DNA of 64,000 nt, from NCBI GenBank assembly GCA_902628375.1, contig CACOMS010000002.1:21403-85402 (forward strand), read 5' to 3'. Origin of the DNA: an uncultured SAR86 cluster bacterium (GTDB lineage: Bacteria > Pseudomonadota > Gammaproteobacteria > Magnimaribacterales > Magnimaribacteraceae). Shown piece by piece: positions 3,196-16,511 of this stretch (position 1 is the stretch's first letter; the number at the start of each line of letters is the position of its first letter). The position numbers and the translations under genes were made by a program. Below the pieces are notes generated by a model. That model worked only from the letters and a program-made list of their open reading frames with translations, did no database searches and had not been told where the DNA came from.

Positions 3196-4551
3196 ATGAA
3201 GGTAGATTTTGTAGTTTTAGCAGCAGGCAAGGGAAAGCGCATGGGGCAAGGAGACTTGCCCAAAGTTCTTTTGCCCCTGGCGGGCAGACCTATTGCCCAA
3301 CATTTACTTGATACTGTCTCATCAATGAAAGAGTCCGCCGTAAGAATGGTGGTGGGCTATAAAGCTTCTCAAGTCAGGTCATCTCTTAAAGTTAAAAGAA
3401 ACACAAAATGGGCAACGCAAAAAAATCAATTAGGCACCGCACATGCCGTCAAACAAGCGGTTCCTTATCTTCGAAAGGGGTCAGTGGCTGTAATTTTATA
3501 TGGAGATGTTCCGCTGGTTTCTCTAAAGACCCTCAAAAGCCTGATTAGAGTAACCACACCTAAATCAATAGGAGTTTTAACTTTTCAAACAGAAAATCCA
3601 AAGGGTTATGGAAGGATTATCCGTGGAGACGATAAAAATATTGCGGCTATTGTGGAAGAAAAAGATGCATCTTTAGCGGAAAAGGCAATAACAGAGGTAA
3701 ACTCAGGAATAATCTCGGTTCAGTCTTCCATCCTGGGACCTCTTTTGGACAAAATAAACAACAAAAATGCTGCCAAAGAATATTATTTAACAGACATAGT
3801 TTCTGTGGCTACTAAAGAAGGTATATCAGCAATCCCCCTGAGATTAGATAACGCTAATGAGCTTCTGGGGGCCAACACACCACTAGAACTTCATAATTTA
3901 GAAAGGATATACCAAGAAAGCCAAGCCAATAAATTGATCGAAGGGGGCGTTAATGTTGCTGATGCTAGTCGAATAGATATAAGGGGCGCCCTAATGGCCG
4001 GAAAAGGCTCTTTCATTGACATAAACAATATTTTTGAAGGCGATGTTGAGATTGGAAAGGCCGTAAAGATAGGCCCAAACTGTTTTATAAAAAATTCTAA
4101 GATAATGGAAGGAGCGGTAATTAAACCAAACACCGTTATTGAAGACTCTATAGTAGGCCCAAATAGCAAAGTCGGCCCTTTTGCTCGAATCAGAGGAGGA
4201 ACCAAATTAGATGCATCTAGTGAATTAGGGAACTTTGTGGAGGCCAACAGGTCCCAAGTAGGCGCACTTACAAAAGCGAAGCATCTAGCGTATTTAGGCG
4301 ATACAACCACAGGAGCATCGGTCAATATAGGTGCCGGTACAATAACTTGTAATTATGATGGAAAAAATAAGAATAAAACCAAAATCGAAGATGGAGTTTT
4401 TGTGGGGTCTAATACCTCTATAGTAGCCCCTATAACCCTGTCAGAAGGATCATATACGGGCGCTGGTTCTGTGATAACTAAAAATGTTCCTAAACATAGC
4501 CTGGCCATAGGAAGAGCAAAGCAAAGCAATATTAAAAGGAAGAAAAATTAA
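3196..4551 (+). CDS. glmU: Bifunctional UDP-N-acetylglucosamine pyrophosphorylase / glucosamine-1-phosphate N-acetyltransferase
   Basis: VLAAGKGKRMGQGDLPKVL nucleotidyltransferase motif plus C-terminal hexapeptide repeats. Confidence 0.97.
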   Translation: MKVDFVVLAAGKGKRMGQGDLPKVLLPLAGRPIAQHLLDTVSSMKESAVRMVVGYKASQVRSSLKVKRNTKWATQKNQLGTAHAVKQAVPYLRKGSVAVILYGDVPLVSLKTLKSLIRVTTPKSIGVLTFQTENPKGYGRIIRGDDKNIAAIVEEKDASLAEKAITEVNSGIISVQSSILGPLLDKINNKNAAKEYYLTDIVSVATKEGISAIPLRLDNANELLGANTPLELHNLERIYQESQANKLIEGGVNVADASRIDIRGALMAGKGSFIDINNIFEGDVEIGKAVKIGPNCFIKNSKIMEGAVIKPNTVIEDSIVGPNSKVGPFARIRGGTKLDASSELGNFVEANRSQVGALTKAKHLAYLGDTTTGASVNIGAGTITCNYDGKNKNKTKIEDGVFVGSNTSIVAPITLSEGSYTGAGSVITKNVPKHSLAIGRAKQSNIKRKKN

Positions 4552-6386
4552 TGTGCGGAATAATTGGAGCAGCCACTAAGGAGCCCTTAGCAGACAAGTT
4601 GATTCAGGGTCTGTTCAGACAAGAATACAGAGGGTATGACTCTTCTGGCTTAGCTGTTTTTTCTGAGGATTCCAATCAAATAGATTTAATAAAAAAAGCA
4701 GGAAAGGTTTCTGAATTAAAAGCTGCTTTACAAGATTACCCCCTAAGCGGCGACACAGGAATAGCTCATACGCGCTGGGCAACACATGGACTTCCTGAAG
4801 AGAAGAACGCACATCCACACCACTCTAATCAAGAGGTATATGCCGTACATAACGGCATAATAGAGAACTACAAGGAAATAAAAACCACTCTTTTGGCCTT
4901 GGGATATAAATTTACCTCTGAAACAGACTCAGAAGTTATTGGCCATTTAATCCATGCGAAGCTACAACAAGGTAACTTAGATCTGATTTCAGCAGTACAA
5001 GAAGCAATAAAAGACCTAAAGGGCGCTTTTGCTTTGGGCGTAATTCATAAAGATGAACCCCAGGTTGTTGTATCTGCTAGAAAAGGAAGTCCGCTTGTAT
5101 TGGGAAAGAGCAATGATGCAAACTACATTGCGTCTGACCAATTAGCGCTTTCTGACTTTGTTGAAGAATATATTTTTTTAGAAGAAGGAGATACTTCGAG
5201 AATAACCCCAAATGACATAAGAATATGGAATGAGGAAGGAACGGAAGTAAATAGACCTGTTGTTGTTGCTAAATCTACTGAAGGGCTGGTTGATAAAGGC
5301 GACTACAGACATTTCATGCAAAAAGAGATCCAAGAGCAACCAGTAAAAATAAGCGAGCTTATGATGGGACATCTTACAAAAGAAGGCGTGAGTGCAAATA
5401 TATTTGGCCCAACTGCGCCAGAGGTATTTTCTAAGGTAAACCATGTCCAGATAGTTGCTTGTGGAACAAGCTATCATGCTGGGCTAGTTGCCAAGTATTG
5501 GATGGAAGGCATAGCAGGAATTTCTTGTAGTGTAGATGTTGCTAGTGAGTTTAGATACAGAAATGTTGTAGTCAAAGAAGGGACTCTTTTTGTCACTCTA
5601 TCTCAATCAGGCGAAACCGCAGACACACTGGCCTGCTTAAGAGATCTAGGTGATTCTGGATACATTTCTAGCTTGGCCATATGCAATGTGCCCACTAGTT
5701 CACTGGTAAGAGAATCAGATTTAGTTTTTTTAACTCGAGCGGGGCCTGAAATAGGCGTGGCCTCAACCAAGGCATTCACCACACAGCTTTTAAGCTTGTT
5801 GATGTTAACTCTGGTCCTAGGAAGAGAGCACGGATTATCTCAGGCAGCAGAGAATTCTATTAATAACTCTTTAAGAGACCTGCCAAGATTACTCGAGGAA
5901 GTGATGGCTTTAGAGCCCGAGATAATTAAGATGGCCGAAGATTTTGATGACAAAGAACATGCATTATTTTTGGGTAGAGGAATCCACTATCCAATAGCCA
6001 TGGAAGGAGCACTAAAGCTAAAGGAAATATCTTACATTCACGCTGAAGCTTATCCGGCAGGTGAACTAAAGCATGGACCTTTAGCTCTAGTAGATGAAAG
6101 TATGCCGGTTGTAGCAGTAGCACCAAATGACGACTTGCTGGAAAAGCTTCACTCAAACCTAGAAGAAGTAAAGGCTAGAGGGGGAAAGCTCTATGTATTT
6201 GGACACACTGATGCCTATCATCAAGGCTTTGCAGAAAAGTTTATTGAGCTTCCAGAGGTCCCAGAATTAATAGCACCTTTAATTTATACCATTCCTCTTC
6301 AGATGCTTTCCTACCATGTAGCAATCCTTAAGGGTACGGATATTGATCAGCCTAGAAATCTAGCTAAGTCAGTAACGGTGGAGTAG
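4551..6386 (+). CDS. glmS: Glutamine--fructose-6-phosphate aminotransferase (isomerizing)
   Basis: MCGIIGA N-terminus, two SIS domains, C-terminal LAKSVTVE; adjacent to glmU. Confidence 0.98.
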   Translation: MCGIIGAATKEPLADKLIQGLFRQEYRGYDSSGLAVFSEDSNQIDLIKKAGKVSELKAALQDYPLSGDTGIAHTRWATHGLPEEKNAHPHHSNQEVYAVHNGIIENYKEIKTTLLALGYKFTSETDSEVIGHLIHAKLQQGNLDLISAVQEAIKDLKGAFALGVIHKDEPQVVVSARKGSPLVLGKSNDANYIASDQLALSDFVEEYIFLEEGDTSRITPNDIRIWNEEGTEVNRPVVVAKSTEGLVDKGDYRHFMQKEIQEQPVKISELMMGHLTKEGVSANIFGPTAPEVFSKVNHVQIVACGTSYHAGLVAKYWMEGIAGISCSVDVASEFRYRNVVVKEGTLFVTLSQSGETADTLACLRDLGDSGYISSLAICNVPTSSLVRESDLVFLTRAGPEIGVASTKAFTTQLLSLLMLTLVLGREHGLSQAAENSINNSLRDLPRLLEEVMALEPEIIKMAEDFDDKEHALFLGRGIHYPIAMEGALKLKEISYIHAEAYPAGELKHGPLALVDESMPVVAVAPNDDLLEKLHSNLEEVKARGGKLYVFGHTDAYHQGFAEKFIELPEVPELIAPLIYTIPLQMLSYHVAILKGTDIDQPRNLAKSVTVE

Positions 6387-6405
6387 AAGGAAACAGTGAT
6401 TTAAT

Positions 6406-6855
6406 GTGAATAAGATAAAACAAATTTATAAATTATCTTCAGTATTATTTTTTATATCTTTTTCCATTCACGCAAAAGAATTTCAAATCTATGGCGGAAG
6501 CGGACATGATGTTTTTCTGGGTTGCATAGGATGTAGTGAATATAGTTCAGACTCAATTTGTAATGGGTATGGCACTTATGGCAATGAATATTCTGCACAA
6601 GGAATGTTTAACGAGTATGCTGGATTTGGCAATGAATACTCCAGCAATAGTCCATGGAATGAGTATTCCTCTAGCAATGATGTCCCTGTTTTGGTAGATA
6701 AAGAAGGAAACTTCTATGGATATTTCACTATAAATAAATACAGGTCAAACGCAGTAGATTTTGCAGGAGAAATGTATAAATGGTTTGAAAAGCATGATGG
6801 CGATATAGAGAAAGTAAGAAGAGAATTATGTAGTTTCTTTGGTCAAGGATATTAA
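6406..6855 (+). CDS. Secreted small protein with degenerate NEYS/GNEYS repeats
   Basis: GTG start, signal-peptide-like N-terminus, repeated (G/S)NEYSS-type motif. Confidence 0.7.
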   Translation: MNKIKQIYKLSSVLFFISFSIHAKEFQIYGGSGHDVFLGCIGCSEYSSDSICNGYGTYGNEYSAQGMFNEYAGFGNEYSSNSPWNEYSSSNDVPVLVDKEGNFYGYFTINKYRSNAVDFAGEMYKWFEKHDGDIEKVRRELCSFFGQGY

Positions 6856-6959
6856 TGAAATGGAAGACAAATTTGTCAAATTCTACAAAAGTTTTCATAA
6901 AGCATTTCATGGCAAAAAATCAAATCACTGTTTTGTTCAAGTCAGTCACTGCGGAATAA

Positions 6960-7478
6960 ATGGATAAAAAATACAAAAAATTATTTCAAACTGTATGTGA
7001 AGCGCGAATTGATGCGCCCAAGGAAGCATTTAATCTTCATGACTGGGTTTTTACTCTATCAGATAAAGATTATCAATCCACAGCACGTGGGCATATTGGC
7101 GCCGGATCGAGCATTCATACTGATGGAACACAAACTTCTGTCAATGTGGAAAGTGTAGGAGGAGGTTTATTGGTTCAACACTATGTTGCAGAAGTTAAAG
7201 AACCTGATCACGTTAAGATGGTATCGCTTACTGATCTTTATTTAGCGCCCTTTATAAGAATTGTTATTAAGGTTACATGGGAAATGCGTCTAATTGCTGT
7301 TTCTGACAATGAATGTAAATTCCAAAATACTGTATTGGTAGAACACCCTAATTTCATTATGAAAATTTTCTCTGCTCTAGCATTAACCGGTTATTTTGTG
7401 CGAAAACATAATGAAGAAGAAACTCCATTGTTTGCTCAAAACTTATATAAAAGAACATTTGAAGGAAATAAAGGTTAA
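6960..7478 (+). CDS. Hypothetical protein, possibly SRPBCC-like
   Basis: 172-aa ORF; stop directly followed by a truncated F2-type end and a core palindrome. Confidence 0.6.
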   Translation: MDKKYKKLFQTVCEARIDAPKEAFNLHDWVFTLSDKDYQSTARGHIGAGSSIHTDGTQTSVNVESVGGGLLVQHYVAEVKEPDHVKMVSLTDLYLAPFIRIVIKVTWEMRLIAVSDNECKFQNTVLVEHPNFIMKIFSALALTGYFVRKHNEEETPLFAQNLYKRTFEGNKG

Positions 7479-7490
7479 GGGTCGGGTTAA
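7479..7490 (+). repeat. Remnant of F2-type right end (GGGTCGGGTTAA)
   Basis: Matches the tip of F2 (GGTTGGGTTAAGAAC) and directly precedes core c1. Confidence 0.5.
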
Positions 7491-7493
7491 TTC

Positions 7494-7513
7494 CACTCTG
7501 TTACAGTGGAGTA
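7494..7513 (+). repeat. Core palindrome c1 (cactctgttacagtggagta)
   Basis: Shared ~20-bp core, CCACT..AGTGG hairpin, also at 9125, 9710, 13100, 15013, 16028. Confidence 0.75.
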
Positions 7514-7713
7514 GTCTTAACCCACCCTTTGTTTTCACCCCACATTCTGCGGGGGTTTTAAAAACCTCTAAAATTTAACCCCGGTAAAAGTTACCTTAAA
7601 AATTTCACCTATTTTTTCGTGTTAGCGGAAGTTATGAGGGATTAATAAGACTTGTTGCGGTCCCTTATGCGGGTTTATGGGACATTCATAAGAAGTTATG
7701 GCAGAATATTTTT
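7514..7713 (+). repeat. F1 left-end element, copy 1 (200 bp)
   Basis: High identity by eye to copies at 9729, 10407 and 15032; ends exactly at the GTG of the downstream gene. Confidence 0.95.
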
Positions 7714-9012
7714 GTGTATAAACTTTTTCCTATCTTATTTTTATTAATTCTTACCTCTTGTTCGAAACCCGAAATACCATCACACCGACTCATCGAGAAT
7801 GGTGGAATATTTTATGAGCGAGACTCTAACGAACCATTTACTGGTTCATCTGTTAACCATATCGATACTAAGTTATTTTCTAAAACTTATCTTGAGAATG
7901 GAATAATCGTAAAAAAAGAAACTTTTCATCCTAACGGGAAACTCCACACCGTTGAAAATTTTAATGAAGGAGAAGAGGGTAGTAAGGTTCAAGTTTTTGA
8001 CGAAGAAGGAACGGACATTTCAGACGAAACTTACCTAACTTACTGGGGAAATGGGTTAGTTAAGGTTAGGGGTCATTATATAAATGGTAAAAGAGACGGT
8101 CTCTGGGAAGAATTTGATTCAATGGGTAATTCTGTTAGAAGAAACCACTGGAGAGATAATAAATTGTTACCCATAATCGATTTCGAAAAAATACAGTTAA
8201 GAGAAAATATACCTTTTTTAGCAAACTCAAGAGAACCCTTTTCAGGAATTATTAGATTTAAAGAGTCCCCATATAAAGGAGTTAGACTTCAAGAATTTAA
8301 AGATGGAAAACCTGAAGGGTTTGTAGAATGGAGACATGAAGAAGAAAAAGGTGGACACATAGCATATTATGCTAGTTATACAAAAGGTCCTTCCTATAAC
8401 TTTGAAACAAAATATATTGAAGGAACGAAACCATATTACAAAGAGGGACTTTTCTATCATTGGTTCGATGAAAATGGAAACAAACAAGTAGAAGGTAGTG
8501 TTCAAGACGGACTTCAACTATATACAAGGTACCATGAAAGTGGAGCAATAAAAGGCAAGGGACAAAGCAGGTTTTATCCTGAAGATGGTTGGTATGAGGA
8601 TGGAGTACAAATTGTATATTATGAAAACGGTCAACTTAGGTCAGAAGAACTTTATGATAAGGGAGTTCCGGTTTCAGGAAAGAAGTTTAGTGATTCAGGA
8701 ATGGATATCTCAAACGGCGAAGGTCTTGGTTATGAAGATACAAGTTATTACCCACAACAAGGTTATTACTTAAATGGTTTAAGAGATGGAAAATGGGAAG
8801 ATGAAAGAGGGGCATTTAATACTTATCAAAAGGGAATATTAGAGGGTCCTTCAGTATATAAAACGGATTCTGAATGTACTTGGATGGTTGGATCATACAA
8901 AAAGGGACTGAGGGAAGGTGAATGGATAGAGTACACTTATGGAAATTGTATGGAAGATGGTGACCCGAGTGAATTGACTTACTTCGAGAATGGGGAGGAG
9001 GTTGAGAGATAA
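7714..9012 (+). CDS. MORN-variant / YwqK-family lipoprotein
   Basis: Lipobox FLLILTSCSK; repeated NGxxxxxGxWxxF/Y-type MORN-like motifs; GTG start. Confidence 0.8.
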   Translation: MYKLFPILFLLILTSCSKPEIPSHRLIENGGIFYERDSNEPFTGSSVNHIDTKLFSKTYLENGIIVKKETFHPNGKLHTVENFNEGEEGSKVQVFDEEGTDISDETYLTYWGNGLVKVRGHYINGKRDGLWEEFDSMGNSVRRNHWRDNKLLPIIDFEKIQLRENIPFLANSREPFSGIIRFKESPYKGVRLQEFKDGKPEGFVEWRHEEEKGGHIAYYASYTKGPSYNFETKYIEGTKPYYKEGLFYHWFDENGNKQVEGSVQDGLQLYTRYHESGAIKGKGQSRFYPEDGWYEDGVQIVYYENGQLRSEELYDKGVPVSGKKFSDSGMDISNGEGLGYEDTSYYPQQGYYLNGLRDGKWEDERGAFNTYQKGILEGPSVYKTDSECTWMVGSYKKGLREGEWIEYTYGNCMEDGDPSELTYFENGEEVER

Positions 9013-9058
9013 AAAAGAGCAACTCTAGACAGTTCATAGAAAGCAAACAAGTGATTCA

Positions 9059-9124
9059 TGCAACCAAACCCCAACTCCTTCAAACACCGCAGAAATAGTG
9101 AAGAATTATGGGTGGGGTAAGAAC
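9059..9124 (+). repeat. F2 right-end element, copy A
   Basis: caccgcagaaatagtgaagaattatgggtggggtaagaac, shared with 13035 and 15963. Confidence 0.9.
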
Positions 9125-9142
9125 AATCCGTTACCGTCGAAT
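9125..9142 (+). repeat. Core palindrome c2 (aatccgttaccgtcgaat)
   Basis: Degenerate copy of core directly after F2 copy A. Confidence 0.6.
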
Positions 9143-9695
9143 GAAAAAGCAACTTCTTATAACTTTTTCAATATGTTTTTCATTTTTAGTAAATGCTCAA
9201 GAATCATTGCTAGGCATAAATTCAAGTGACGACGAATTTAAAAGAAGTACGTGGATCACAACAAAAAGGTTGTACGCAAACGAATACTATCAAGATGCGA
9301 ATGTCTGGTTATTTTTTGGAATAAGTCATTTTTGGAAAGAAGAAGGAATAGAAGACGATTTATATGTGTTCTCTGTTCAGGGCAACGTTGCTTTCGCAAA
9401 CGCAAATGAATCTCAAATTTATTTCTACGATAACAATTCAAACCGTTTTGAGTTTGCTGAGGCATATATGAGCGAGTATCAACGAGGCGATACACCATAT
9501 GGTTACAGGATGGGTATAGGTTGTGGAAAAAATTTTAAATATAACTGTATGAATTATTTCAAAACAATGGAAGACAAAGAACTAGTTTGGAGATTTTATA
9601 ATGGCAGCAGAAAAATTGCAGACATTGAAATACCAAAGTCATTTCGATCTGCTTTTATTGCGTATTTTGATGAAGTTCAAAAAACATACAAATGA
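9141..9695 (+). CDS. Secreted hypothetical protein
   Basis: Signal peptide from ATG 9141 (MKKQLLITFSICFSFLVNA); the tracked start at 9108 lies inside F2 and is probably wrong. Confidence 0.7.
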   Translation: MKKQLLITFSICFSFLVNAQESLLGINSSDDEFKRSTWITTKRLYANEYYQDANVWLFFGISHFWKEEGIEDDLYVFSVQGNVAFANANESQIYFYDNNSNRFEFAEAYMSEYQRGDTPYGYRMGIGCGKNFKYNCMNYFKTMEDKELVWRFYNGSRKIADIEIPKSFRSAFIAYFDEVQKTYK

Positions 9696-9709
9696 ACCTT
9701 GCTACGACA

Positions 9710-9728
9710 ACTCCGTTACAGTGGAGTA
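9710..9728 (+). repeat. Core palindrome c3 (actccgttacagtggagta)
   Basis: ACTCC..GGAGT inverted arms; directly before F1 copy 2. Confidence 0.75.
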
Positions 9729-9927
9729 GTCTTAACCCACCCCTTATTTTTACCCCACATTCTGCGAGGGTTTTCAGTCCCTTTAAAATTTAACCCCGGT
9801 AAAAACTACCTTAAAAATTTCACCTTTTTTTCTTGTTAGCAGAAGTCATAAGGGGTTGATATGATTTGTTGCGGTCCCTTACGTGTGTTCATGGGACAAT
9901 TAAATTGAATTGTGGCAGAATATTTTT
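9729..9927 (+). repeat. F1 left-end element, copy 2 (199 bp)
   Basis: High identity by eye to copy 1; ends at ATG of downstream lipoprotein gene. Confidence 0.95.
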
Positions 9928-10407
9928 ATGAAAAAGTTGTTGATATTAATTTTTGTTTTAATTTTGAGTTCTTGTTCTCAAGAATTTAATGAGCAAGAAT
10001 TTAATGGGAATGAGATTGTTAAAAAGGATGGTCTTGTTTGGCACTATTCATCCACTGAACCTCTTACTGGGAAAGTTGTGTCGTTCCACGAAAACGGTCA
10101 AATAAAGGAGGTAGGAAACTACATAAACGGAGAAAAAGACGGTCTCCATGAGGTTTTCCACGAAAACAGTAAATTACATAGAAGAGGAAACTACATAAAC
10201 GGAGAAAAAGACGGTCTCCATGAGGAGTACCGGGAAGACGGCATGAGACAGTACATGTTTCACTGGAAAAACGGAGAATTGGACGGCCGCCAGGAGTACT
10301 TCGACCAATGGGGAGATCTCCGTCTTAGGGAAACTTGCGAGGACGGAGTTTGTGTTAGATCGGAAGACCAAAGGGGATATGTAGGGGATAGGAGATATAG
10401 GGAGTAG
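9928..10407 (+). CDS. MORN-repeat / YwqK-family lipoprotein
   Basis: MKKLLILIFVLILSSCSQ lipobox; three NYINGEKDGLHE-type repeats; the tracked start at 9910 is inside F1. Confidence 0.8.
   Translation: MKKLLILIFVLILSSCSQEFNEQEFNGNEIVKKDGLVWHYSSTEPLTGKVVSFHENGQIKEVGNYINGEKDGLHEVFHENSKLHRRGNYINGEKDGLHEEYREDGMRQYMFHWKNGELDGRQEYFDQWGDLRLRETCEDGVCVRSEDQRGYVGDRRYRE
10113..10224 (+). repeat. Internal 72-bp tandem duplication in MORN gene
   Basis: aggaaactacataaacggagaaaaagacggtctccatgagg at 10113 and again at 10185 (period 72 bp = 24 aa). Confidence 0.9.
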
Positions 10408-10606
10408 TCTTAACCCACCCTTTATTTTTACCCCACATTCTGCGGGGGTTTTAAAAACCTCTAAAATTTAACCCCGGTAAAAGTTACCTTAAAAATTTCA
10501 CCTATTTTTTCGTGTTAGCGGAAGTTATAAGGGGTTGATATGACTCGTTGCGGTCCCTTATGTGTATCAATAGGACATTTACAAGGAGTTATGGCAGAAT
10601 ATTTTG
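10407..10606 (+). repeat. F1 left-end element, copy 3 (200 bp), preceded only by a truncated core (ggagta)
   Basis: High identity by eye to copies 1, 2 and 4; ends at ATG of HNH gene; the residual core supplies the TAG stop of the upstream gene. Confidence 0.95.
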
Positions 10607-11407
10607 ATGTTAAAAAAGTCGAACCTAGATGTAACTAAGACCCGAAAACTTTTTCTTAGATATAAACTAACTGCAGAATTTTTATCACCCACTCAAACAG
10701 GTCTTACTAAGTCATATATGGATGCGATTATTGATTTTAGTAATTTTTTGAAAAAACATAAAATTCATGATTTTGACAAACAACAACAGGGACAAGCACA
10801 CAAGGTAACCATTAATCCAAGTTCTAAATATTATTACAATAACTCTTTAATTTATAAGGAAGTTGCATTCTTTAGACCGATGTCTAAAAAAGGCGATAAA
10901 AGAATTCGCATAGAAAAATTAGACCATCACTGCAAACCCCATGATTTACTTGCATTTGTTCTAATTGGCAATCAGATCGAAATAATAAATTGCTCATCTA
11001 TAAAAAACCTTGCAAATTTTTTATATCAAATAACAGTTTCAAATAATATCGCAATTTATTCATCTCAAAAAAAACCAACCCCTCCAAAAGGAAAGAAAAA
11101 ACCAAAAAAAATAAACTCCTCCTCAACAAGTTACTCAAGAGATCCAGCGGTAGAGGCATTTGTTTTAAATGCAAGTCTTGGAAAGTGTGAGTCTTGTAAT
11201 ATGAATGCACCTTTTATTAGAAGTAGCAATAATTCTTATTATCTAGAAATTCATCATATTAAAAGGTTAGCAGACGGAGGTTCAGACACTGTTTCAAATG
11301 CAGTCGCAGTATGCCCAAACTGCCACAGGGAATTTCACTATGGAGTTAATATGCATAAACTAAATAATCAGATATATAGAAAGGTAAAAAGGTTAATTAA
11401 AGAATAA
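10607..11407 (+). CDS. HNH endonuclease, probable restriction enzyme partner of the adjacent C5-methyltransferase
   Basis: CESC..EIHHIKRLADGGSDTVSNAVAVCPNCHREFH HNH motif; convergent with Dcm-type methyltransferase. Confidence 0.85.
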   Translation: MLKKSNLDVTKTRKLFLRYKLTAEFLSPTQTGLTKSYMDAIIDFSNFLKKHKIHDFDKQQQGQAHKVTINPSSKYYYNNSLIYKEVAFFRPMSKKGDKRIRIEKLDHHCKPHDLLAFVLIGNQIEIINCSSIKNLANFLYQITVSNNIAIYSSQKKPTPPKGKKKPKKINSSSTSYSRDPAVEAFVLNASLGKCESCNMNAPFIRSSNNSYYLEIHHIKRLADGGSDTVSNAVAVCPNCHREFHYGVNMHKLNNQIYRKVKRLIKE

Positions 11408-11408
11408 A

Positions 11409-12686
11409 TTAAGACAAGGTATTTATTATTTTTTTAAAATGCATGCCAACTTCATATGCTAATTTTACAGGTACAGCATTGCCTATTTGAGTATATTTAG
11501 GGACCTCTCTTTCAAAAATGGATTCCCTAGGGTTGCCTGCTCTTCTTATGCCTCCAGTAGTTCTTTTGCCAGCAAATTGATACCAATCAGGAAAAGTTTG
11601 AAGTCTTGCCCACTCTCGAACAGATGGTGATCTTGCCTGAGAGTAATGGACAAAATCATCTGGAAGTGATGTCACCGTGATAGTTGGTCCTTTGTTGCCC
11701 CAATTCTTTGGAAGAATTCTTTGAGCAAACTTTTTTGTTTTCAAGTGCTCTGGTATTTCACCATTATTCTCAATCATATAAGCAAATTTTTCTCTTATCC
11801 TTTTAGAATGATTGCTATATTCGTGTTCAGTTAAAGGGTCGCCTTTTCTAAAAATAGTTCTTTTCTTTGTTCGAATCTCTTCTTGCCAAAAAGTTTTGGG
11901 TTCAGAGGGGTATGAATTAGTTGCACCACCGTACTCAAAGTTTTTATCAACAATATCAGAAAATATATCTTCAATATGAGGATAATCAAACTCAGGCATT
12001 GGAAGAAAACCACCATCCAACGCATCAAGAATATCATTCTTATCTGAATAAATATCTGATCTAACACCAATGATCAAAACACGAGGTCTATTTTGTGGAA
12101 CTCCATAATCTTTAGCATGCACAAGTTTATATTTAACATTGTAATCTGGTACGTTTTTAAATGTTTTTAGAACATCTTTAAAAATTTCTCCTTTAACTCC
12201 ATCTTTTGTCCACCTTGCGGACATCAAACCCTCTACATTTTCAAAAAGAAAAATCTTAGGTTTAATTTGATGAACGAAAAATGCCATATCTTGGTATAAA
12301 TGGTTAGACGGGAGTTGTTTTTTATCCACCGAATAAGATCTTCTAATTCCAATTCCTGAAAATCCTTGGCACGGAGGTCCTCCAGCAACAACATCGACAG
12401 AATCTTTTTTAAAGTCTCTGTTAAATTCTTTCTTAAGATCTTTAAATAAAGTCTTGAAGAATTCTTTGTTTGAAATTACATCTTTAATATCTTGCGAGTA
12501 GAATTTATTCCTAAGATGCGGGAACTCCTCATCCCTATTAGTTAAATAAGTTTCCAAAGCATCTTTATTTAACTCATTCACATAAAGCGGGAAGAACCCC
12601 GCTTTTTCAAGACCCAAAGATAACCCGCCACAACCAGCAAACAAATCAATATATGTGGGGGTTTTCTTCTTAAGTTTCATAAACAA
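11409..12686 (-). CDS. DNA (cytosine-5-)-methyltransferase
   Basis: DLFAGCGGLSLG, GGPPCQGFS, FENVEGL, QNRPRVLIIG, YTQIGNAVPVKLA motifs. Confidence 0.95.
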   Translation of the reverse strand: MFMKLKKKTPTYIDLFAGCGGLSLGLEKAGFFPLYVNELNKDALETYLTNRDEEFPHLRNKFYSQDIKDVISNKEFFKTLFKDLKKEFNRDFKKDSVDVVAGGPPCQGFSGIGIRRSYSVDKKQLPSNHLYQDMAFFVHQIKPKIFLFENVEGLMSARWTKDGVKGEIFKDVLKTFKNVPDYNVKYKLVHAKDYGVPQNRPRVLIIGVRSDIYSDKNDILDALDGGFLPMPEFDYPHIEDIFSDIVDKNFEYGGATNSYPSEPKTFWQEEIRTKKRTIFRKGDPLTEHEYSNHSKRIREKFAYMIENNGEIPEHLKTKKFAQRILPKNWGNKGPTITVTSLPDDFVHYSQARSPSVREWARLQTFPDWYQFAGKRTTGGIRRAGNPRESIFEREVPKYTQIGNAVPVKLAYEVGMHFKKIINTLS

Positions 12687-12834
12687 GTTCTATTTATAAC
12701 TTAATTTGACGAAATTTTCCAGGTATTGTTTAATGAAATTTGCATCAAGAGCAGGATTAAATTCCTCTCCAACCTGCCAACTCCGGCAAGGTGGAAAGAA
12801 TGATGTGGTTAACCAACAAACATAGGAGTACAAA

Positions 12835-13029
12835 ATGAATTACAAAAAGATAAAAATTAATGAATCATCATATGTAAAACTTTTTGATGATGACAGATTT
12901 GAAGTTCACTGTTCTGCTCAAGGACCACTTGGAGCAAATGTTTATCATTTTAAAGGAGGTCTCCTTGAGTGGAAGCAAAGGAGGAGTTATGCTGGTGTAT
13001 CTAAGAAATATAAAGCAACTTATGAGTAA
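12835..13029 (+). CDS. Small hypothetical protein (64 aa)
   Basis: ORF with upstream SD (ataggag), inside the F1..F2 unit. Confidence 0.55.
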   Translation: MNYKKIKINESSYVKLFDDDRFEVHCSAQGPLGANVYHFKGGLLEWKQRRSYAGVSKKYKATYE

Positions 13030-13034
13030 TTCAT

Positions 13035-13099
13035 GCGACTAAATCTCAACCCTTTTAAATACCGCAGAAATAGTGAAGAATTATGGGTGGGGTAAGAAC
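13035..13099 (+). repeat. F2 right-end element, copy B
   Basis: accgcagaaatagtgaagaattatgggtggggtaagaac, near-identical to copy A. Confidence 0.9.
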
Positions 13100-13119
13100 A
13101 CTCTGCTACAGTAGAGTAG
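13100..13119 (+). repeat. Core palindrome c5 (actctgctacagtagagtag)
   Basis: ACTCT..AGAGT arms, compensatory relative to ACTCC..GGAGT in c3. Confidence 0.75.
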
Positions 13120-13148
13120 TTTACAAAAGTAAATAAGCAGGAGTTGGA

Positions 13149-13538
13149 ATGGTTATAAACAACCAAGTTTTCATTAGAAGGTTTGTTATCTTTACATTTT
13201 GTGTGACTGCAATTCATTTCATCTTAGAAAGTCTATACACAATACAATTTGGACAGTCATTTTTAGGACTCCTGCCTGACTTAATTGCTGACGCACTTTT
13301 AGTAACAGGTGGCGTACTAGTTTTAAAAAACTCAAAAGCGATAGGCATTTTGTGCGGGGCATGGGGGTTTACTTTTTGTTTACATTATCGATCTTGGGCA
13401 TGGAGATTTGAGTCAGTGCAAGACGGTTCTGCAACAACAGTTGATGAAATAACAATGATTGTTTTGGCATCCACTATGTTTATCTCAATACTCTGCTTTA
13501 TTCTGACTCTATTAATGTGTTTGCCAAAAAGAAATTAA
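13149..13538 (+). CDS. Hypothetical membrane protein
   Basis: 129 aa, several hydrophobic segments. Confidence 0.65.
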   Translation: MVINNQVFIRRFVIFTFCVTAIHFILESLYTIQFGQSFLGLLPDLIADALLVTGGVLVLKNSKAIGILCGAWGFTFCLHYRSWAWRFESVQDGSATTVDEITMIVLASTMFISILCFILTLLMCLPKRN

Positions 13539-13613
13539 TATTATTTACTGTTGTAAAACACTTAATAACAGTAGAGTAGTTTTAAATCGTTATCCAGTAA
13601 GCAGTTTTTATTA

Positions 13614-14987
13614 ATGAAGATTTTTATAAGAGTTCTATTTGCATATATTTTATTGCAACCCGTTTATGCTTTTTCTGAAAGCGAAGGGTTAAAAATACTG
13701 GTTGTTGGGGCAGGAATATCAGGACTGGGCGTGGCAAGAGATTTACATGACTCTGGTTATAAAGTAACTGTTCTTGAGGCTAGAAATAAAATTGGCGGAA
13801 GAATAGACACAGATAGATCATTGGGGTTTCCGATAGAAAGAGGTGCTAATTGGATTCACAGTAATGAGTTAGAAAATAATCGCCTCATGTCCATAAAAGA
13901 AGAGCTGGGGCTAAAAACATATATAAGCCCCTTAACTGCTTATGATGGCGTTAAATTGTTTGACAAAAGTGGAAATGTTATAAATCTAAAGAAAGAAGAT
14001 TTAGAAAAAATTGAATTTAGGATAGGGTTGGCTGCCTACATTGCTTCATACATTAAACCTTCGTCAAATCTGGAAGATGTAATAGATTTCTTAAAACGCA
14101 TAGGCTTACTGTCTTTTGCTCCTAATGCACTTCTACAAGCCATTCACCAAACTTTAGAACTAAGCGCCGCTGAAGATTCGAGGAATATGCCAATCGGTGT
14201 CTTAATAGAGGAAGCAGAATATGCTGAGAGCGCTGGAAGTGATGAAGAGGTGCTTGGGGGCTTTGATCAAATTACAAATCATTTATCTCAGAATTTAGAT
14301 ATTAAATTGAACACCCCAGTAACAAAAATTGATTATTCATCTAAAAAGATAAAAGTATTTACCGATGAGCAGGCTTACGTTGCTGATTCAGTGGTTGTGA
14401 CTGTTCCTCTTGGTGTTTTACAACAGAACCTTATCGAATTTGTTCCGGAGTTGCCTGAAAAAAAGAAAGATGCAATTAGCAATATAAATCTAGGAAATGT
14501 AAACAAGGTTATTTTAAGATTCCCATACAAGTTCTGGGGAGACGACAAAATGTTTTTCATTGAGCGAGAGAACAGAAGTGCCTTTTCAACCTGGTTCAAT
14601 AACGAGGTAATAGTAAATGAACCAGTTATCTATTCCATTATTTCAGGAGACTACTCAAGAGAACTCGAGAAGAAGTCAGATGAATATGTAATTGAAGAGG
14701 CAATGAAGCCTTTAAGGGTAGTTTATGGAAAAGATATTCCAAATCCAGATTCATTCTTAATCACAAGATGGGGGCTAGAGCCATACATACTGGGATCTTA
14801 CTCAACAGCTGGATACAATCAAGATGACTTAACACTGAGAACTGAATTAGCTAACCCAATTGAAAATAAAATATTTTTTGCTGGCGAGGCAACAAGCGTT
14901 AATGAATACGGCTTCACGCATTCCGCTCTAGATACAGGCTTAAGAGAAGCCAAAAAAATTAAAGAATTATATCCTTTAGATCTATAA
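13614..14987 (+). CDS. Flavin-containing amine oxidase family protein with N-terminal signal peptide
   Basis: VVGAGISGLGVARDL..VLEARNKIGGRIDTD; C-terminal FFAGEATS; hydrophobic leader. Confidence 0.9.
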   Translation: MKIFIRVLFAYILLQPVYAFSESEGLKILVVGAGISGLGVARDLHDSGYKVTVLEARNKIGGRIDTDRSLGFPIERGANWIHSNELENNRLMSIKEELGLKTYISPLTAYDGVKLFDKSGNVINLKKEDLEKIEFRIGLAAYIASYIKPSSNLEDVIDFLKRIGLLSFAPNALLQAIHQTLELSAAEDSRNMPIGVLIEEAEYAESAGSDEEVLGGFDQITNHLSQNLDIKLNTPVTKIDYSSKKIKVFTDEQAYVADSVVVTVPLGVLQQNLIEFVPELPEKKKDAISNINLGNVNKVILRFPYKFWGDDKMFFIERENRSAFSTWFNNEVIVNEPVIYSIISGDYSRELEKKSDEYVIEEAMKPLRVVYGKDIPNPDSFLITRWGLEPYILGSYSTAGYNQDDLTLRTELANPIENKIFFAGEATSVNEYGFTHSALDTGLREAKKIKELYPLDL

Positions 14988-15012
14988 TCTCACCCAATAA
15001 CGCTTTTAAAAC

Positions 15013-15031
15013 AGTCCGTTACAGTGGAGTA
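15013..15031 (+). repeat. Core palindrome c7 (agtccgttacagtggagta)
   Basis: Same core directly before F1 copy 4. Confidence 0.7.
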
Positions 15032-15225
15032 GTCTTAACCCACCCTTTGTTTTTACCCCACATTCTACGGGGGTTTTCAGTACCTCTAAAATTTAACCCC
15101 GGTAAAAATTACCCTAAAAATTCCACCTATTTTTTCGTGTTAGCGGAAGTCATGAGGGACTGATATGACTTTTTGCGGTCCCTTATGCGTGTTTATAAGA
15201 CATTTATAAAAACTTATGGCAAAAT
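15032..15225 (+). repeat. F1 left-end element, copy 4
   Basis: gtcttaacccaccctttg...ttaaccccggtaaaaattacc...ttgcggtcccttatg shared with copies 1-3; right edge more diverged. Confidence 0.93.
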
Positions 15226-15252
15226 CATAACTTAAATACAAGGAGAAACTTA

Positions 15253-15606
15253 ATGAGCGAAAAAATTTATTACGCTGCTATGTTCAGGAGCAGACCTTTT
15301 ACATTTATTATTGGGTGTATGTTTATATTCCCCCCACTATACTGGTTTCTTTTGGCAAGATCTGAAAAGATAACTTTCAGTGATGGTAGGATTATTTATT
15401 CAAGAGGACTATTAAGTAAAAATGATACCGAGTGTGATCTTAATAGGGTTTCTTCAGTTCAAGTAAGACAGTCAGTGGGTCAAAGGATATTTGGTGCTGG
15501 GGACGTAGTAGTAAATACCGCAGGAGATGTTCCAGAAATAGAAGCATTAGGTTTTGCTAATCCAAATGAAATAAAGAAGGCAATAGACGAAGCAAGAAGA
15601 TCATAA
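15253..15606 (+). CDS. PH domain-containing (bPH_2-like) small membrane protein
   Basis: ITFSDGRIIYSRGLLSKNDTECDLNRVSSVQVRQSVGQRIFGAGDVVVNTAG pattern; two-helix N-terminus. Confidence 0.75.
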   Translation: MSEKIYYAAMFRSRPFTFIIGCMFIFPPLYWFLLARSEKITFSDGRIIYSRGLLSKNDTECDLNRVSSVQVRQSVGQRIFGAGDVVVNTAGDVPEIEALGFANPNEIKKAIDEARRS

Positions 15607-15607
15607 T

Positions 15608-15922
15608 TTGAAAAAGTCTTTAAAAAATACTGTCTTTTCAGACTCCGATCAAATAAGCACCCTCAAAGGGTGCTTATTTATTTTAATAACTCAATTTCTT
15701 TTATTAATTCTTACAATTACATTTGCGTATTTAATATATATTAGTTCCGGATTTATAAAGTCTTTCTCTATCGCAGCGCTCATAACTAATATTTGTTATC
15801 ACGGGGTTGCCTTATTTAATGATCTTGATGATTTTGGAGAGTATAGAGCAATGAGAGGCGTTCTAATTTGGTATGCGACTGCAGTAATAGTAATTACAAC
15901 TTTTATAGAGATAGTCTTTTGA
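15608..15922 (+). CDS. Hypothetical membrane protein (start uncertain, TTG)
   Basis: 104-aa hydrophobic ORF; a strong terminator-like hairpin lies within its first 25 codons. Confidence 0.45.
   Translation: MKKSLKNTVFSDSDQISTLKGCLFILITQFLLLILTITFAYLIYISSGFIKSFSIAALITNICYHGVALFNDLDDFGEYRAMRGVLIWYATAVIVITTFIEIVF
15651..15686 (+). terminator. Rho-independent terminator-like hairpin
   Basis: Perfect 13-bp stem AAATAAGCACCCT-CAA-AGGGTGCTTATTT followed by attttaa. Confidence 0.8.
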
Positions 15923-15962
15923 ATGAATCATTTATTTTTTAAGAGAAATATAGGGATTTTAT

Positions 15963-16027
15963 ACGACCAAACCTCAACCCTTTCAAGCACCGCAGAAATA
16001 GTGAAGAATATAGGTTGGGTTAAGAAC
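15963..16027 (+). repeat. F2 right-end element, copy C
   Basis: caccgcagaaatagtgaagaatataggttgggttaagaac. Confidence 0.88.
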
Positions 16028-16047
16028 ACTCAATGACTATAGAATGA
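16028..16047 (+). repeat. Degenerate core c8 (actcaatgactatagaatga)
   Basis: Follows F2 copy C at the same offset as c2 and c5; overlaps start codon of next gene. Confidence 0.5.
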
Positions 16048-16511
16048 AAAATATAATCATAGCAACCCTCTTTTTATTAATGACACCCTTCATGAAGGCT
16101 GATAACCAACGTACCAAGGTTGATGCTTTGTTAGACGGGCTTCATCAGGACGCGCATGAAGCTAATTTTGAAACCTACTTTGCTCGTTACAGTTCAGATG
16201 CAGTTTTTTTAGGTACAGACAAAACAGAGCGCTGGACCATAAAAGAATTTAAAGACTACGCAAAACCGGCATTTGCAGATGGACATGGATGGACCTACTC
16301 AGTTGTGGAGCGTAACTGGGAAGGAGAAGGCAGTACAAGGTGGTTCGATGAAATTCTATTCAATGAAAAATTAGGGCACTGCAGAGGGACAGGTGTAGTC
16401 GAGAAGAAAAACGGCGAATGGAAAATAGCTCATTATGCTTTAACAATGCTCGTACCCAATGCTATCGCGAGAGAGGTTGGTGCGCAGACGAAAGAAGCCG
16501 ATAAGCTTTAA
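16044..16511 (+). CDS. Secreted SnoaL/NTF2-like domain protein
   Basis: Signal peptide; YSSDAVFLGTDKTERWTIKEFKDYAKPAFADGHGWTY..NGEWKIAHYALTMLVPN pattern. Confidence 0.75.
   Translation: MKNIIIATLFLLMTPFMKADNQRTKVDALLDGLHQDAHEANFETYFARYSSDAVFLGTDKTERWTIKEFKDYAKPAFADGHGWTYSVVERNWEGEGSTRWFDEILFNEKLGHCRGTGVVEKKNGEWKIAHYALTMLVPNAIAREVGAQTKEADKL

Follow-up and report, generated by a model that had tools for sequence, protein, structure and literature searches.

Several described systems place tandem mobile elements at the 3′ end of a conserved gene. Staphylococcal cassette chromosomes (SCC, SCCmec) integrate at the 3′ end of the housekeeping gene rlmH (orfX) by means of a resident large serine recombinase (LSR), CcrA/CcrB or CcrC. 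Stacked elements are separated by repeated attachment sites, and recombinase-less pseudo-elements occur. In Dehalococcoides, tandem islands at ssrA are bounded by ~20-bp copies of the gene's 3′ end; a CcrB-like serine recombinase, DsiB, has its gene ending at the attachment site, and some islands have no recombinase (PMC3146451). In Candidatus Methylopumilus, the additive flexible genomic island fGI-2 is marked by a repeat of the final 20 nt of tRNA-Lys and holds mostly unknown genes (PMC10872708). Integron arrays and clusters of attC sites lacking integron-integrases (CALINs) have mostly single-gene cassettes in one orientation and cassettes common to distant genomes, and include arrays with no resident recombinase. 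Here we analyze an array of gene cassettes behind glmS in SAR86, a widespread, uncultivated, streamlined lineage of the surface ocean. The starting point was a stretch of 64,000 nt (the window) from contig CACOMS010000002.1 of an uncultured SAR86 cluster bacterium. An original prediction had described an accessory island there, built of cargo-carrying units with inverted ends called F1 (left) and F2 (right).

We consider it likely that this island consists of small integrative gene cassettes in tandem, which share one attachment site, the 3′ end of glmS, and are moved by a serine recombinase. Like SCC and the ssrA islands, the array would combine a serine recombinase with copies of an essential gene's 3′ end between tandem elements and with recombinase-less units. 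It differs in scale and content. SCC elements span tens of kb and carry their own ccr genes, and the ssrA islands are also large, many with a six-gene integration module; in the available text, no paired analysis of their arms is reported (PMC3146451). The glmS cassettes are mostly 0.2–3 kb with one or few genes, the recombinase is rarer (a single LSR element at glmS in 202 genomes of the order), arm types are many, and the hosts are marine bacteria. With fGI-2, the locus shares a streamlined planktonic host and an island marked by gene-end copies, whereas the target there is a tRNA gene and, in the portion of that source available, neither a recombinase nor an arm structure is identified (PMC10872708). 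What is new is the miniaturized, mostly single-gene, integron-like form of the array; its general kind is already known from SCC and the Dehalococcoides ssrA islands. In the open-access literature, we found no paper describing a glmS cassette array.

Copies of the glmS 3′ end bound the cassettes

In the window, atp genes, glmU and glmS are followed by a cassette array that starts from the glmS stop codon (Table 1). The 3′ end of glmS encodes K-S-V-T-V-E-stop, and a ~21-bp copy of these codons (AARTCNGTNACNGTNGARTRR) lies directly outside every F1 tip and F2 tip. The same repeat separates units that have neither F1 nor F2. The true cassette boundary falls in this copy, ~10 bp outward of the F1 and F2 tips. 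About nine cassettes occupy the region from 6376 to 16037, with erosion at the boundaries close to 10401, 13559 and 16027.

Table 1. Features of the glmS cassette array (positions in the window)
Feature	Position	Strand	Details
glmS	4551..6386	+	3′ end 6366-6386, AAGTCAGTAACGGTGGAGTAG, chromosomal attachment site; crossover AC 6375-6376
Cassette 1	6376..6949	+	149-aa ORF 6406-6855; left arm AAGGAAACAGTGATTTA, right arm TCAAATCACTGTTTTGTTC
glmS-tail copy	6939..6959	+	AAGTCAGTCACTGCGGAATAA
Cassette 2	6949..7504	+	172-aa ORF 6960-7478
glmS-tail copy	7494..7514	+	
Cassette 3, F1/F2 type	7504..9134	+	F1 7495-7712; MORN lipoprotein 7714-9012; F2 9078-9140
glmS-tail copy	9124..9144	+	CAATCCGTTACCGTCGAATGA
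Cassette 4, without F1/F2	9134..9719	+	Secreted-protein ORF 9141-9695
glmS-tail copy	9709..9729	+	
Cassette 5, F1 type	9719..10401	+	F1 9710-9926; MORN lipoprotein 9928-10407
Cassette 6, F1/F2 type	10401..13109	+	F1 10401-10605; F2 13052-13115
Cassette 6 cargo			HNH endonuclease 10604-11407; C5 methyltransferase 11409-12686 (minus strand); 64-aa ORF 12835-13029
glmS-tail copy	13099..13119	+	
Cassette 7, without F1/F2	13109..13569	+	Membrane ORF 13149-13538
glmS-tail copy, degenerate	13559..13579	+	CACTTAATAACAGTAGAGTAG
Cassette 8, without F1/F2	13569..15022	+	FAD amine oxidase 13614-14987
glmS-tail copy	15012..15032	+	
Cassette 9, F1/F2 type	15022..16037	+	F1 15013-15226; F2 15980-16042
Cassette 9 cargo			Bacterial PH-domain protein 15253-15606; membrane ORF 15608-15922
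glmS-tail copy, last, degenerate	16027..16047	+	CACTCAATGACTATAGAATGA
Native-type downstream gene	16044-16511		Follows the last tail copy

The repeats first reported are real: F1 lies at 7514, 9729, 10407 and 15032 (four copies over 215 nt), and F2 ends at 9124, 13099 and 16027 (three copies over 91 nt). Gene calls bear out the cargo as predicted (MORN, HNH, C5 methyltransferase, PH-domain), the domains in the window being MORN_2, HNH, C5 methylase, bPH_2 and amine oxidase. The window encodes no recombinase. The extent of the island needs correction. It was placed from 7479, but the array begins at glmS (6376) and takes in cassettes 1 and 2 as well. Units in the order F1-cargo-F2 are present as described, yet cassettes 4, 7 and 8, which have neither end, are cassettes too. 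The unit said to have no F2 does lack it; this is cassette 5, which has lost its right arm and the left half of the following boundary. The inverted symmetry of F1 and F2 also holds, except that it does not end at GTCTTAACCC and GGGTTAAGAAC, for the axis is the AC in the outer glmS-tail copy. Taken alone, the F1-F2 tip similarity is weak, since shuffled sequences score nearly as high or higher. It turns decisive only once many cassettes are aligned on their glmS-tail copies: a profile of 139 cassettes strengthens the end similarity, whose disappearance would have refuted the original prediction.

F1 is not scattered through the genome. All four copies in the 1.13-Mb source genome lie inside this island. 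When F1 was sought in 151 genomes, it sat beside glmS wherever it was strong: in all retrieved 20-kb loci where a strong F1 had glmS within range, F1 was downstream of that gene and in the same orientation. The idea of non-autonomous passenger units with paired inverted ends was right in spirit, with F1 and F2 marking only one subtype of cassette end.

Crossover is confined to a central AC

To map the crossover, we used 17–18 cassette families that have differing neighbours in several genomes. Within the core GTN-AC-NGT, bases preceding AC follow the upstream cassette, and bases after it follow the downstream cassette. The switch falls between core positions 8 and 11 (0.30 versus 0.74 at position 8; 0.64 versus 0.21 at position 11). 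Crossover is thus confined to the central dinucleotide, an invariant AC, as expected of a serine recombinase.

This sharpness bears on whether cassette insertion is the work of a tyrosine recombinase, either a dedicated integrase or the host XerCD, on the pattern of tycheposons, integrons and Xer-using elements. Many elements that target gene 3′ ends do use such enzymes, and almost every genome searched has XerC/XerD-like genes. But tyrosine enzymes exchange over 6–8 bp, so the crossover should blur, and the observed one spans only ~2 bp. Moreover, the 23 genomes with F1 hits hold almost only two Xer-like PF00589 genes each, none of them at the array, and the single autonomous element (see below) encodes a serine recombinase. 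In the source genome itself, which is 67% complete, we found no PF00239 match and one XerC/D-like PF00589 match, on another contig. We judge a tyrosine recombinase unlikely.

The two ends of one cassette form inverted repeats around AC, and the arm sequence differs from cassette to cassette. Among 139 dereplicated cassettes, arm complementarity at d=14–27 was 50–68%, versus 30–48% for re-paired ends (z 3.5–8.8 over these controls). It dropped to background by d=29 and held in a single register, centred on AC. The mean arm alignment score was 19.4 versus 12.7 ± 0.28 (5000 permutations). Matching reaches d=28 on each side of AC, in line with inverted attP half-sites of ~25 bp; in a solved serine-integrase complex, attP half-sites of 25 bp flank a central dinucleotide (PMC3783163). 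By this analogy, a ~2-bp crossover with two ~25–28-bp half-sites is the layout of a serine-integrase attP. Both half-sites would be bound by the same enzyme and may therefore drift together, giving paired variation without a hairpin.

Paired arms could also reflect integron-type recombination of folded, single-stranded attC-like ends, the arms acting as a hairpin and hence covarying without conserved sequence. The arms are indeed self-complementary and freely variable between cassettes, single-strand exchange would also make a sharp crossover, and the Rep gene of the autonomous element suggests single-stranded DNA intermediates. In attC, however, crossover occurs at the hairpin base, at one cassette end, whereas here it occurs at the symmetry axis, and each cassette end bears one of the two arms. 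The length of the arms is that of a double-stranded serine attP. Given the axial crossover and the failure to find intI (no PF00589 match at the arrays of 23 genomes), we reject this reading as very unlikely. The likeness to integron arrays lies in cassette content, orientation, sharing between distant genomes and the missing resident recombinase; the site is glmS rather than attI/attC, and the probable enzyme class is serine, not tyrosine.

Cassettes insert precisely and move between genomes

Insertion is precise, and an empty site exists. At one locus (L087), 700 bp of native downstream DNA is joined directly to glmS. The same DNA at four other loci (L066, L092, L065 and L063) begins exactly where a tail copy ends (0 nt apart), and 0.4–5.1 kb of cassettes separate it from glmS, so the intervals do vary in presence among genomes. 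Cassettes are also transferred between genomes. Shared cassettes had a median nucleotide identity of 97.4%, versus 68.3% for glmS (86 locus pairs); in the extreme case, a 1391-bp cassette was 100% identical while glmS was 65.5%. A cassette located right behind glmS at L094, in another SAR86 family, matches cassette 7 of the window at 89.5% identity over 440 bp.

Alternatively, the tail copies could be decayed relics, and the present shuffling of the islands could come from homologous recombination between the core genes on either side. The eroded boundaries in the window and the rarity of recombinase genes would fit. Against this, identical cassettes occur in distant genomes at different array positions, next to different neighbours, with exact AC junctions. 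Such a history strikes us as highly improbable.

The classic attTn7 neighbourhood is glmS, and TnsD targets the glmS 3′ end, so we also considered Tn7-like transposition guided to this site by a TnsD/TniQ-type protein. Tn7 has conserved ends and inserts downstream of glmS by DDE transposition with a 5-bp duplication, neither replacing nor copying the tail. At the array, by contrast, tail halves are exchanged and arms are variable. Since each half of a tail copy travels with a different neighbouring cassette, the copies are not target-site duplications, whether casposon-like or Tn7-like. Nor was a transposase present among the best 25 of 65 Pfam families of cassette proteins. The boundary structure already refutes the Tn7-like reading, to which we assign next to no probability. 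Mobile insertion cassettes, to which the units had been likened, and miniature inverted-repeat transposable elements share passenger genes, inverted ends and the lack of a transposase. Mobile insertion cassettes have terminal inverted repeats on which an insertion sequence (IS) transposase acts, whereas the glmS cassettes are site-specific to one locus, make no target duplication, rebuild glmS with their ends and share those ends with a serine recombinase element. The other option offered, a cassette array whose recombination system is unrecognised, was right in spirit as well. The process is conservative site-specific recombination, not transposition.

A rare element with the same arms encodes a large serine recombinase

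The autonomous copy that the original prediction proposed to look for exists. Searching 202 SAR86 genomes for serine recombinases yielded three long ones. At one locus (L134, genome G191), glmS is followed by a tail, an arm (GTTTAGTCGGTCTTTC), a 6-kb segment, an arm (GAAAGACCGATTAAAC), a tail and then further cassettes. The segment encodes a REP_ORF2-G2P rolling-circle protein (1.6e-6) and, at its end, a 551-aa LSR with the Resolvase (PF00239, 6e-24) and Recombinase (PF07508, 1e-11) domains; its Zn ribbon match (PF13408) is weak, 3e-4, below the cut-off. The nearest solved relatives are YokA of SPbeta and the TP901-1 integrase. This element has the same arms as cassettes: recombinase-less cassettes at L036, L040 and L046, in three other genomes, carry matching ones.

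A second case comes from a complete non-SAR86 gammaproteobacterial genome (G385). Reading across the start of the circular record, we found an IS-broken recombinase, the last gene between glmS and a tail copy, 42–51% identical to that of L134 over the better-matching parts only. In viral contigs, the L134 recombinase had no relatives and a scan for array ends with two arm patterns gave none; in phages, the only relatives were integrases less than 30% identical. Three core-pattern matches in viral contigs lay inside overlapping phage structural genes and were dismissed as unrelated.

Other recombinase genes were noted in passing. Beside its broken LSR, the G385 element (L170/L171) encodes a 183-aa small serine resolvase, a pairing that recalls DsiA/DsiB and CcrA/CcrB. 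Two related SAR86 LSRs of 519–525 aa (L135, G041:C1:250674; L136, G044:C2:1414) are not at glmS. At L128 (G075) and L129 (G123), a small serine recombinase adjoins a phage-type tyrosine-integrase-like protein of ~410–440 aa; in L137 this pair is beside guaA. Small proteins are encoded at the left end of L134 (84-aa ORF), of G385 (120-aa ORF right behind glmS) and of a cassette at L121 (2386-3337). A motif like GLGYRRIAHHLNQRNITT, resembling the DNA-binding part of serine recombinases, is common to the G385 and L121 proteins. The small left-end protein is a candidate directionality factor.

A model for cassette insertion

In the model that we favor, the two ~28-bp half-sites of a cassette would join as attP in a circular form. 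Recombination at AC would insert the cassette, and its left end would rebuild the last codons of glmS. Every insertion would add one tail copy at the right end and thereby let cassettes stack. The enzyme would be the LSR of rare autonomous elements with the same ends, acting in trans, and differing arm types would mirror recombinases of differing specificity. The circular intermediates, the action in trans and the route between cells are what we infer from the arms and junctions.

Several observations weigh against this account. Only one intact recombinase element was found at glmS among the 202 SAR86 genomes, and most arm types have no recombinase alongside. The conserved ~190-bp inner part of F1 was not found in the autonomous element. 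Finally, phage serine integrases normally recombine attP with attB and leave attL and attR inert, so repeated stacking needs either relaxed site use or a directionality factor.

Array content across SAR86

Among 58 oriented SAR86 glmS loci, we counted tail copies within 9 kb, allowing ≤3 mismatches of 21. Extra copies numbered 177 on the glmS strand versus 8 on the opposite strand. The exact tail pattern was multi-copy in roughly half of 203 genomes of the order, with a reversed-pattern control near zero; in ~335 other gammaproteobacteria it was nearly always single, namely the glmS gene itself.

Cassettes range from 120 bp to over 3 kb, and most hold one or two genes. ORFs of at least 60 aa point in the glmS orientation in 240 of 272 cases. 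Many cassette genes start within 10–30 bp of the glmS stop codon. Given their orientation and closeness to the stop codon, the genes are probably read through from glmS, as integron cassettes are from Pc. A promoter/terminator scan found fewer sites than in shuffles and is no evidence either way. The array probably functions like an integron array. Protein clusters are mostly singletons (134/168); recognizable cargo includes restriction endonucleases, methylases, HNH proteins, MORN lipoproteins and small enzymes. With restriction-modification and other defence-like genes among the cargo, the array may be a site of defence turnover. The commonest cassette in the sample is a ~1.5-kb, two-gene, sulfotransferase-like one (L035, 14473-16034, and eight other loci); its proteins are 95–99% identical in ten loci.

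Matching cassette ends beyond SAR86

We scanned 85,462 species genomes for exact matches to one arm type, taking taxon names of metagenome-assembled genomes (MAGs) as deposited. The scan returned 30 stretches, mostly from SAR86. Others came from Porticoccaceae, OM182, Woeseia and Pseudomonadales, and from MAG contigs named Rhodobiaceae, Chloroflexi, Nitrospina and Verrucomicrobia. Wherever a stretch includes glmS, the match sits at its 3′ end. Identity of glmS to that of the window was 36% for the Chloroflexi contig, 48% for Nitrospina and 54–66% for gammaproteobacteria (longer matches); the 85% of the Verrucomicrobia contig covers only a 26-aa stub. With glmS genes this distant from that of the window, the Chloroflexi and Nitrospina contigs, at least, are not misplaced pieces of SAR86 genomes. 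The arms of the Chloroflexi cassette match at 16/17 positions, and the cassette shares 75% identity with one from SAR86 across 497 bp. Cassette 2 of the window has a counterpart in the single-cell genome of a non-SAR86 gammaproteobacterium, with 87% identity across 500 bp.

On balance, we lean slightly toward a broader reading, in which the system would be a serine-recombinase counterpart of the integron: marine bacteria of different phyla would capture, exchange and express, behind glmS, mostly single-gene cassettes equipped only with ~28-bp half-sites, served in trans by rare rolling-circle helpers, with arm types as specificity groups. If true, the integron principle of collecting small promoterless cassettes at a single site would also apply to another recombinase class. 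The clear structural rule at a defined site of gene exchange in SAR86 makes the cassettes findable and listable by computation. The recombinase and its glmS site, if active, might also be put to use for placing DNA next to a conserved, essential gene while leaving that gene unharmed.

Minor features of the window cassettes

The inner ~170–190 bp of F1 (7540-7712, 9755-9926, 10434-10605 and 15058-15226) is conserved across SAR86 families, with many columns above 90%. It occurs only in F1-type cassettes, between the left arm and the cargo gene. We rejected an RNA element, since there was no Rfam match and no covarying structure (4 weak pairs only); a search of phages for F1 gave no match. Candidate roles are a replication or packaging signal, or a leader/promoter. 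In cassette 5, the MORN lipoprotein gene contains near-identical 72-bp tandem repeats (10084-10300), a likely site of copy-number change.

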